Assembly (NCBI GenBank): GCA_019634625.1
Contig: JAHCBA010000024.1
Coordinates: 1-64,000, forward strand
Source: Verrucomicrobiia bacterium
Lineage (GTDB): Bacteria > Verrucomicrobiota > Verrucomicrobiia > Limisphaerales > CAIMTB01
DNA: 64,000 nucleotides
Direction: 5' to 3'
Shown: positions 49,124 through 52,117 of the stretch, piece by piece
Numbering within the stretch: the first letter of the stretch is position 1
How the letters are laid out: the number at the start of each line of letters is the position of its first letter
Position numbers and translations under genes: made by a program
Notes under the pieces: model-generated
The model's database searches: none
Seen by the model: the letters and a program-made list of their open reading frames with translations, nothing else
What the model was told of the DNA's origin: nothing

Positions 49124-49546
49124 ATGAAGCAACGCATTGCACCGATTCTGTGGGGAGGTTTTGTCGCGCTGGGCCTGTTCATCACCGGCTGTGGGAAGGG
49201 GGGAGGCATTGATACGGCGGATCTCGACGCGGCCTTTGTGCGTGCGGAACCGGAAGTGAAGGCAACGGCGACGACGGCGGTGCAGGCGTTGAAGGCGGGG
49301 AAATTCCTGGACGGAGCGACCGCCCTGGCGAACCTGGCACGTTCTGCAGAATCGCTCAGCGAGGATCAGAAGAATGCGATGATCAACGTGGGGGCCATGA
49401 TCCAGGTGGTTATGGCGGAGGATGGCGACAAAGCTGACCTGGCGGTGTACCAGGCGGTCGAGGACATGATGGCCGCACTGGATGGACGGGAGGCCTCGAC
49501 GGTGGGGACGGATCCGGACCGGGTGCGTCCGCCGGAGGAGTTCTAG
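49124..49546 (+). CDS. Small lipoprotein of unknown function
   Basis: 140 residues from ATG 49124. A lipoprotein signal peptide (MKQRIAPILWGGFVALGLFI) ends in the lipobox ITGC with C25 or close to it, so it should be anchored to a membrane by a lipid. The mature part is mostly helical (DAAFVRAEPEVKATATTAVQ, ALANLARSAESLSEDQKNAM). No domain recognised. Its stop codon overlaps the end of argB on the other strand by 4 bp (49543-49546), so the two are convergent and very tight. Confidence 0.75.
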   Translation: MKQRIAPILWGGFVALGLFITGCGKGGGIDTADLDAAFVRAEPEVKATATTAVQALKAGKFLDGATALANLARSAESLSEDQKNAMINVGAMIQVVMAEDGDKADLAVYQAVEDMMAALDGREASTVGTDPDRVRPPEEF

Positions 49547-50418
49547 GACACCACTTCGGTGCCGACGCCTTCGTCGGTGAAGATTTCGAGCAGGACGGCA
49601 TGGGGAATCCGGCCGTCCACGAAGGAGACCTTTTCGACTCCGGCCCGGATGGCGGCGACGGCGCTTTCGACCTTGGGGATCATGCCCTGATCGATGACGC
49701 CGGCGGTTCGGAGGTCAGCGACCTCGGCGGTTCGGAGGTGAGGGATCACCGATTCGGGGTTCCTGGGATCGCGAAGAAGGCCGGGAACATCTGACATGAA
49801 GACGAGGCGCCGGGCCTTGAGGGCGATGGCGGTCATGGCGGCGGCGACATCGGCGTTGCAGTTGTAGAGGTGGCCGTCGAAGCCGCGAGCGGTGGGGCTG
49901 ATCACCGGGGTGACGCCTTCGGCGATGCAATCGAGCAGGGGACGGGTATTGACCTCGACGACTTCGCCGACAAAGCCGAGGTCGAGGGGTTCGCCGCCGG
50001 GTCCATCGATGGCCGCCTTGCGGCAGCGGTAGATGTCGGTGCCGGCAAAGCCGCAGGCGCGACCGCCGAGTTGATTGATGGTGGCGACGATCTCCGGGTT
50101 GATTTCGTGGGAGAGGATGCGATGGACGAGTTCGGCGGTGGTCGCGTCGGTGACGCGGCGACCCTGGACGAAGCGGGCCTGGAGGCCAGCACGTTCCATG
50201 GCGCGGGTGATGGCCTTGCCGCCGCCGTGGACGACGACCGGATCGATCTCGACCGCTTCGAGGAAGACGACATCGCGGGCGACGCCCTGACGGACCGCCG
50301 GGTCCGGGGAATCCATGAACGAGCCGCCGTACTTCACGACGAAGGTGGCGCCGCTGAAGCGCTGGATGTAGGGAAGGGCCTCCAGCAGTGTGTGAGCTTT
50401 GGCGATGAGATCTTGCAT
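49543..50418 (-). CDS. argB: Acetylglutamate kinase
   Basis: 291 residues from ATG 50418 (MQDLIAKAHTLLEALPYIQR). Phosphorylates N-acetylglutamate, the second step of arginine synthesis. FVVKYGGSFMD (ATP/substrate Lys and Gly loop), VVVHGGGKAITRAME, YNCNADVAAAMTAIALKARR and the C-terminal VEKVSFVDGRIPHAVLLEIF are typical. The N-terminal helix of the arginine-sensitive, hexameric type (LLEALPYIQRFSGAT) is present, so feedback inhibition by arginine is likely. No other arg gene is adjacent. It ends tail to tail, overlapping, with the lipoprotein gene. Confidence 0.96.
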   Translation of the reverse strand: MQDLIAKAHTLLEALPYIQRFSGATFVVKYGGSFMDSPDPAVRQGVARDVVFLEAVEIDPVVVHGGGKAITRAMERAGLQARFVQGRRVTDATTAELVHRILSHEINPEIVATINQLGGRACGFAGTDIYRCRKAAIDGPGGEPLDLGFVGEVVEVNTRPLLDCIAEGVTPVISPTARGFDGHLYNCNADVAAAMTAIALKARRLVFMSDVPGLLRDPRNPESVIPHLRTAEVADLRTAGVIDQGMIPKVESAVAAIRAGVEKVSFVDGRIPHAVLLEIFTDEGVGTEVVS

Positions 50419-50470: not shown

Positions 50471-51163
50471 TCACCCTGGTGCCGGGGCGTCAAGGTTGGC
50501 CGGGGCCGGGTCATCTTCGTCGTCGGGAAGTCCGGGTTGGAGGAGGCCGACACGATTGGCGCCGGCGGCCACGAGGGCTTCGGCATGGTGGCGGGCCTGG
50601 ACACCGCCGACGGCCTTGAGGCCGAGATCCGGTCCCACCCATTCCCGAAGGCGTCGGACATCCCCGGGGGTGGCGGGGCGCACGGCGCAACCGGTGGCGT
50701 TGACCAGGAACTGGACTTCCGCATCGAGGACGACGCGGGCGGCGAGGCGAAGGTCGTCATCGTCGAGAAGGGGCCATTCGATCACCGCCTTGACGGGGCG
50801 ATCCTCGGCAATATCCCGGATGTCGCGCAATTCGCGCAGGAGACGCTTCTCGTCCCGATCCTTGATCCAGCCGAGATTGAGTACGACGTCGAGTTCAGCG
50901 GCTCCGGCATCGATGGCGGCTTCGGCTTCGAATCGTTTGGTGTCGGGATCGGCCTGGCCGAAGGGGAACCCGACCAGGGCTGCGACGTGGACGGGTGAAT
51001 CCTCGAGGAGGCTGGCGGCGAGTTGGACCCTGGAACCGCCGACACACACGGCCCACCACAGTTGCTGCCGGGCAAGCGAGCAGGCTCGTTCCAGGTCGGC
51101 CCGGGTCAGGTCGGGACGAAGGGCGATCCATTCGAGGCGGCGAGAGAGCGGGACGGCATCCAC
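50471..51163 (-). CDS. DeoC-family aldolase homologue lacking the Schiff-base lysine
   Basis: 230 residues from GTG 51163. TIM-barrel of the deoxyribose-phosphate aldolase family: ELDVVLNLGW with D92 and GLKAVGGVQ with K183 match. But the segment that in DeoC is FVKTSTGF with the Schiff-base lysine reads QFLVNATGCA, so V154 replaces Lys. Typical aldolase activity is therefore not expected; either it is an inactive or altered paralogue or it has another reaction. Other features (RVGLLQPG for the usual RIGASSG) also deviate. The 52-bp gap to argB makes co-transcription possible. Confidence 0.8.
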   Translation of the reverse strand: MDAVPLSRRLEWIALRPDLTRADLERACSLARQQLWWAVCVGGSRVQLAASLLEDSPVHVAALVGFPFGQADPDTKRFEAEAAIDAGAAELDVVLNLGWIKDRDEKRLLRELRDIRDIAEDRPVKAVIEWPLLDDDDLRLAARVVLDAEVQFLVNATGCAVRPATPGDVRRLREWVGPDLGLKAVGGVQARHHAEALVAAGANRVGLLQPGLPDDEDDPAPANLDAPAPG

Positions 51164-51259: not shown

Positions 51260-52117
51260 TCAGAGGATGATGGTCCTGACGCCGACGAAGAGGGTGGGGG
51301 CGAGGCCGGCTGGTCCCACAAAGCTTCCGGCGACGGGCGGCACGGCAGAGGGATGGCGACCGACGGCGACGGCGATATGGGAGCCGCCGGTGGCTTCCCC
51401 GAGGGTGCTGTCGTAGCCCCGCCAGCCGGCACCGGGCAGATAGACTTCGGTCCAGGCGTGGGTGGAGCCACCGGGGCCGGCACTGGAACCGGTGCACAGG
51501 TAGCCGCTGACGAAACGGGCAGGGAGTCCCAGGCCGCGACAGGTCTCCATGAATAGGGTGGCGAAATCCCGGCAGGAGCCCGTCCGCGTTGCCAGCGTCA
51601 CATCCGGCGACTGCACGCCTTCCGCATGGCGCTCCGCGTAGGTGAATTCGGAGGCGATCGCCCGATTGATCCCGGCCAGCAGGGCGAGGGTGTCGATGAC
51701 CTGTCCGGGTCGCCAGAATCGGGCCCGCCAATCAAGGCAGGCGGGCGAATCGCCGGGGTACGCCTGGATGCGGTGAGGGGACAGGCTGATCGCCTCGTGG
51801 TTCGAGACCTGGCAGGGGTAAGCCGTCCAGGCGCGGTCGATGGGGAAGAACGGCGGCATGCACTCGAAGTGCTGGATGACGATCTCGCTCTCGATGGAAA
51901 GGGTGTCAGCGGGCTCGAGGAAGCGGGCAATGGCGAGGGCGTTGTCGTGCAGATCCCGCTGCCAAAGGACCTCACATGGGGGGTGGATTGCCAGCCGGGA
52001 GGATTCCACCTGGACGTCATGGCCCTCCCTGGGGCGGAGGTACAATCGGTGAGGCTCCAGTTCGACCCGTACGGGGAACCGGTAGGTCGTCCTGTGTTCG
52101 ATGCGGAGGCGTCGCAT
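51260..52117 (-). CDS. Transglutaminase-like protein
   Basis: 285 residues from ATG 52117. An N-terminal bacterial transglutaminase-associated domain (RRLRIEHRTTYRFPVRVELE) precedes a transglutaminase/protease-like catalytic domain with C182 in TGSCRDFATLFMETCRGLG, H220 in GGSTHAWTEVYLPG and D236 in GWRGYDST. The Cys-His-Asp triad is complete. No signal peptide, so it is likely cytoplasmic. Such proteins sometimes accompany circularly permuted ATP-grasp genes, which are not present here. Real substrate unknown; papain-like peptidase or amide-bond enzyme. Confidence 0.9.
   Translation of the reverse strand: MRRLRIEHRTTYRFPVRVELEPHRLYLRPREGHDVQVESSRLAIHPPCEVLWQRDLHDNALAIARFLEPADTLSIESEIVIQHFECMPPFFPIDRAWTAYPCQVSNHEAISLSPHRIQAYPGDSPACLDWRARFWRPGQVIDTLALLAGINRAIASEFTYAERHAEGVQSPDVTLATRTGSCRDFATLFMETCRGLGLPARFVSGYLCTGSSAGPGGSTHAWTEVYLPGAGWRGYDSTLGEATGGSHIAVAVGRHPSAVPPVAGSFVGPAGLAPTLFVGVRTIIL

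Follow-up and report, generated by a model that had tools for sequence, protein, structure and literature searches.

Relatives of deoxyribose-phosphate aldolase without the Schiff-base lysine form a branch in Limisphaerales

Introduction

What becomes of a deoxyribose-phosphate aldolase (DERA, encoded by deoC) once it has lost the lysine that serves as its nucleophile? The question is raised by a deoC-like gene of a Verrucomicrobiia bacterium, which lies in the first 64,000 nucleotides of contig JAHCBA010000024.1; this whole stretch is the window analysed here. The original prediction, made from the letters alone, described the product as a DeoC paralogue that lacks the Schiff-base Lys and might have a new function. 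Here we ask whether the Lys is indeed missing, how far its absence extends among relatives, and which role would fit a protein of this kind. Our search of the literature, restricted to open-licence PMC papers, found no description of Lys-less DERAs.

Results and discussion

A DERA homologue without its nucleophile

The predicted gene corresponds to an intact open frame, located on the minus strand (Table 1). The window protein scores 165.2 bits over its whole length with TIGR00126 (deoC; curated cut-off 117.3) and barely passes PF01791 (24.1 against a cut-off of 23.8), and phmmer matches it to the solved DERA 6d33 (E 7.9e-36). According to PMC4725968, E. coli DERA uses K167 as the Schiff-base Lys and D102 as the catalytic acid, and K201 lowers the pKa of the first Lys. 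The gap-free phmmer alignment of the window protein to 6d33 and 5dbu sets V154 under the Lys of FVKTSTGF, which agrees with the replacement that had been proposed; D92 and K183, said to be kept, are indeed aligned under the catalytic Asp and the second Lys of both structures. As a cross-check of the register, 6msw (titled 'K184L mutant') has Leu exactly at window K183. This BH1352 mutant shares the fold, but of the two Lys residues it retains only the first, and the window protein only the second.

Table 1. The deoC-like gene of the window, its active-site codons and its neighbours
Feature	Position	Strand	Remarks
deoC-like gene without Schiff-base Lys	50471..51163	minus	230 aa; GTG start 51163, TGA 50471-50473
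Codon 92, Asp, GAC	50888..50890	minus	equivalent of E. coli D102
Codon 154, Val, GTC	50702..50704	minus	aligned with the Schiff-base Lys of DERAs (strand 6; E. coli K167)
Codon 183, Lys, AAG	50615..50617	minus	equivalent of E. coli K201 / BH1352 K184
argB-like amino-acid kinase (N-acetylglutamate kinase)	49543..50418	minus	PF00696 (AA_kinase) 131.9 bits; ~52 nt downstream; listed open frame extends to 50760, start 50418 chosen by us
Transglutaminase-like protein	51260..52117	minus	PF08379 + PF01841; 96 nt upstream, same strand

Five positions that we take to form the DERA phosphate site (G158, GG186-187, R189 and S208) are nearly fixed in Lys-bearing relatives. The window protein keeps G158, G186 and G187, and has Gln at 189 and Leu at 208. 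It also shares C40 with DERAs such as 6d33 and 5dbu, and differs from them in having E-W-I in place of DHT at positions 11-13.

An AlphaFold2 model from 25 sequences (pLDDT 91.6, pTM 0.88) predicts a TIM barrel of DERA type. In a structure comparison with this predicted model, the first 48 rows are all DERAs and designed derivatives of them (Z 25.6-33.9), the best being 5dbu (Z 33.9, rmsd 1.3 over 212 residues), and Foldseek agrees. The next fold group is MJ1099 (4u9p, 4rc1; Z 19.8), which has a DERA-like barrel and is likened to the window protein by fold alone, being an archaeal protein of another family with 13% identity. A common fold by itself proves no function.

The term paralogue does not hold within the source genome, where the gene is the only TIGR00126 member even at E <= 10. 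The same search gave no hidden second DERA in this assembly, which is 96.98% complete, and the other PF01791 matches are fructose- and tagatose-bisphosphate-type aldolases.

The loss is shared across Limisphaerales

Chance and assembly or sequencing errors can be ruled out as the cause of the missing Lys because all four congeners (54-60% identity) lack it too, with V, V, A and V in its place; the loss is thus common to relatives, a point on which the original prediction had asked for a check. Where the contigs of the congeners and other relatives carry names, these are Verrucomicrobiota, subdivision 3 or Limisphaerales. Scanning genome contigs with the window protein alone returned no relatives, a scan with the genus alignment returned 26 loci, and a scan of viral contigs gave no matches.

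We then assembled deoC-like genes from 245 Limisphaerales genomes together with the earlier matches, which gave 152 genes among the matches listed, of which 151 are readable; the remaining one, L043, ends at a contig edge ahead of position 154. The Lys is absent from 42 of the 151 and present in 109, a share that is not a population frequency, since the sample was collected with a Lys-less profile and comes from the matches listed. Position 154 in these 42 genes is occupied by S (11), C (8), A (7), V (6), T (6), G (2), N (1) or Q (1). Elsewhere in the phylum, where 48 of 106 genomes matched at E <= 1e-30, the Lys is kept in 29 of the 29 best matches that were fetched.

Because the nucleophile is absent from the window protein, and from 42 of the 151 readable genes among the matches listed, it is very unlikely that the canonical DERA reaction takes place through a Schiff base, in line with the original prediction. 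Judged from this residue loss and the drift of the pocket, the window protein is very unlikely to be active as a DERA, and the name 'aldolase' given to it by automatic annotation is probably wrong. The problem is wider, as 9 of 11 Lys-less proteins scanned pass the TIGR00126 cut-off. Under this NCBI deoC equivalog they would be named deoxyribose-phosphate aldolase with no nucleophile present, and the pathways predicted from many Limisphaerales genomes are therefore probably in error.

Phylogenetic analysis with the trait columns removed places 41 of the 42 listed Lys-less rows, together with L163, in one group (support 90/93), within which the window genus is supported at 100/98; a quick tree with all columns gives the same grouping. 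The exception, L116, branches with Lys-bearing genes, as if it had lost the Lys independently. The AU test does not reject a single origin (p-AU 0.348 for the 41 rows and 0.29 for all 42), which is not proof because long branches are present in the tree. We infer that the Lys was lost essentially once in Limisphaerales. The Lys-less state is spread over many genera and families in an old clade, and to judge from the sequences these DERA relatives are a whole branch and not an oddity of one genome.

Two rows show other combinations of residues. L116 (G046:C77:22994-23629) has Ser for Lys in an otherwise near-canonical DERA (FVSTSTGYG), and is the sole TIGR00126 gene of its genome. L163 (G054:C9:24253-24888), inside the Lys-less group, is the mirror image, with FIKTTSGF, and thus the Schiff-base Lys, and Val for the second Lys. 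Positions 92-154-183 accordingly occur in graded states (D-K-K; D-K-V; D-x-K; E-x-K; all three replaced), and the branch amounts to a natural experiment on the fate of a lysine aldolase once the lysine goes. These states are directly testable with purified proteins.

The Lys-less gene appears to be kept by selection

No internal stops were reported among the listed Lys-less genes. In seven close Lys-less pairs dN/dS is 0.096, 0.121, 0.123, 0.126, 0.132, 0.136 and 0.206, and between the window gene and its congeners it is 0.27-0.31. Over pairs with dS<2, distant ones being saturated, the median is 0.36 for Lys-less genes (412 pairs) versus 0.21 for Lys-bearing genes (3226 pairs). By parsimony, Lys-less proteins change at a mean of 0.29 steps per branch versus 0.23 in the Lys-bearing set, and 11 sites are unchanged throughout the Lys-less set. 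The intact frames and the low dN/dS of close pairs support retention of the Lys-less gene by selection. A key catalytic residue has been lost, with the predicted fold and selection kept, as in a pseudoenzyme. The suggestion that a new function is possible is thus supported with respect to selection, by intact frames and by close-pair dN/dS well below 1.

Genomic context

A Lys-bearing DERA is also encoded in 38 of the 42 genomes with a listed Lys-less gene, which would free the Lys-less copy; the source genome has none. Counting in addition G022, which carries the contig-edge gene L043, a second TIGR00126 gene is found in 39 of 43 genomes and is absent only from G000, G046, G109 and G204. Across all 39 genomes we inspected 49 other copies (including L039 from a genome outside the set), and 48 have the K-T/S-x-x-G motif; the sequence of L256 ends just after IKTS. 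In the seven genomes searched, source genome included, deoB was not found, and pyrimidine-nucleoside phosphorylase exceeded the cut-off only in G025, the source genome having a sub-threshold match. The source genome thus has no obvious deo pathway for the protein to feed, a further difference from DERA/DeoC.

The original prediction drew attention to the neighbouring argB. The gene is directly downstream (Table 1), but its value as a clue is lost, because it does not occur beside the deoC-like gene of the four congeners and is private to the source genome within the sample. In congeners G002 and G004 a biotin-carboxylase-like gene (identified by eye) is convergent with the deoC-like gene; G001 and G003 differ.

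The most frequent neighbour is malate dehydrogenase, located on the same strand beside deoC in 64 of 152 listed loci (e.g., L170 and L030), with 62 upstream and two downstream and a median gap of 5 nt. It accompanies 51 of 109 Lys-bearing and 13 of 43 Lys-less genes (L043 counted as Lys-less), which suggests that the Lys-less gene descends at least partly from an mdh-deoC pair. The pair looks like an old operon whose metabolic link is not obvious. Other neighbours of listed Lys-less genes are phosphofructokinase (five) and aldehyde dehydrogenase (seven). A type III polyketide-synthase-like gene occurs at seven Lys-less loci and at none of the 109 Lys-bearing ones, among the matches listed. As malate dehydrogenase accompanies Lys-bearing and Lys-less genes alike, and argB occurs in this position only in the window among the loci sampled, we reject gene neighbourhood as a general clue to a partner. 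The neighbours differ so widely that context names neither a ligand nor a constant partner.

At the seven polyketide-synthase-like loci (L041, L098, L099, L178, L214, L217 and L221) the Lys-less deoC is followed by the synthase-like gene on the same strand. Five of them add another same-strand gene family, one member of which matches methyltransferase domains.

Candidate roles for the Lys-less protein

A maintained non-DERA role is likely. As to its nature, we tentatively favour, at somewhat less than an even chance, a former DERA whose barrel handles another, non-phosphorylated ligand via the D/E92-K183 pair. The ancestor in Limisphaerales would have been a short DERA, often beside malate dehydrogenase and usually with a second DERA as a back-up. 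Its Schiff-base Lys (E. coli K167) would have been lost essentially once, with selection preserving the TIM barrel and the pocket being remodelled. Instead of a sugar phosphate, the barrel may now bind some other small ligand, a carbonyl or a carboxylate compound, and perhaps turn it over, with the retained acid D/E92 and K183 acting as a charged pair inside it.

Positions 92 and 183 provide evidence for this. Among the 42 listed Lys-less proteins the residues at 92 and 183 are E-K in 27, D-K in 11, and D-Q, Q-N, Q-T and G-L in one each, so that an acid is present at 92 in 39 and K183 in 38. In the 109 listed Lys-bearing proteins D92 is invariant and position 183 is Lys in 107, Val in one and a gap in one; Glu at 92 thus occurs in 27 of 42 Lys-less versus 0 of 109 Lys-bearing proteins among the matches listed. 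The acid and K183 tend to go together, since all three Lys-less proteins without the acid are among the four without K183 (L028, L184, L198 and L219; hypergeometric 3.5e-4, kinship ignored). Both also evolve slowly in the Lys-less set, at 0.07 steps per branch for position 92 (counting D and E as equal) and 0.10 for K183, against the mean of 0.29. Positions 154, 155, 157, 187, 189 and 208, almost fixed in Lys-bearing DERAs, change there at 0.35-0.57 steps per branch (0.24-0.57 for position 154 with its loop, R189 and S208), and this drift of the lysine loop and phosphate site also favours a rebuilt pocket, as do the intact frames, the low dN/dS of close pairs, the retained predicted fold and the spare Lys-bearing DERA in 38 of 42 genomes.

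The closest rival, doubtful but a serious candidate, is a dead pseudo-aldolase serving as a structural or regulatory subunit, which would fold, form oligomers (with its own kind, a further DERA or a neighbouring enzyme) and work via its surface. Plant PDX1.2, a pseudoenzyme of vitamin B6 synthesis, works with PDX1.3 and offers an analogy for such a non-catalytic subunit, although it belongs to a different family and, unlike the window protein, has a known partner. The slowest sites lie mostly on helices 3-4 (D74, K76, R77, E79, E81, R110, E111 and D114) and their rates differ little between Lys-less and Lys-bearing proteins; a structural or interface role would lead one to expect this, and it speaks against a repurposed pocket. 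At many positions of the pocket the rate of change equals or exceeds the mean. L028, L184 and L219 have lost the Lys, the acid and the second Lys, and their frames are intact. It is the first of these that makes the scaffold a close rival. L028 is a congener (Q92, A154, T183, T125), so even inside the window genus a protein lacking the charged pair has survived, and no other single fact weighs as heavily against a repurposed pocket. The higher overall median dN/dS of Lys-less pairs and the loss of K183 from three more Lys-less proteins also count against such a pocket, and the D/E92-K183 pair could be conserved simply as a salt bridge. Against the scaffold, the source genome encodes no further DERA that it could regulate, the neighbours are not conserved and so provide no constant partner, the pair is kept in 38 of 42 proteins, and Glu92 is confined to Lys-less genes. 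For these last two features we prefer the repurposed pocket.

Two related readings keep lysine chemistry. The broader, which we regard as unlikely, is an order-wide barrel family in which K183 and an acid extended from Asp to Glu at position 92 have taken over the chemistry, so that a carbonyl compound without phosphate would be acted on in a new lysine-dependent way; in some lineages this activity would be linked with an operon for a type III polyketide synthase. The other, quite improbable in our judgement, is a class I lysine enzyme in which K183 (or K125, on strand 5) would be the new Schiff-base nucleophile and E/D92 the acid-base, and a different aldehyde would undergo an aldolase, retro-aldol or similar reaction. 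The latter would fit K183 in 38 of 42 proteins and an acid one carbon longer in 27, and MJ1099, which we take to be MfnB of methanofuran and methanopterin biosynthesis, would be a precedent for a DERA-like barrel with another function. However, K183 is missing from four Lys-less proteins, the window protein has Leu in place of the conserved Ser208, a position that drifts in the Lys-less set, and the second Lys of DERA serves, according to PMC4725968, to lower the pKa of the first.

A functionless relic on its way out is very improbable: the faster evolution of Lys-less genes and the spare DERA in most of their genomes would suit it, but the same state extends over the many genera and families of an old clade, no internal stops were reported, close-pair dN/dS is 0.10-0.21 and 11 sites have not changed.

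Observations on individual matches

The only internal stops among the Limisphaerales matches listed are single codons in two Lys-bearing deoC genes, G143:C90:3223-3858 (TAA) and G039:C142:508-1152 (TGA). Contig CAMCWI010000027.1 (L070), titled Akkermansia muciniphila, is probably a mis-titled MAG, as its contig number and its length of 24,676 bp are the same as those of Limisphaerales G175:C27.
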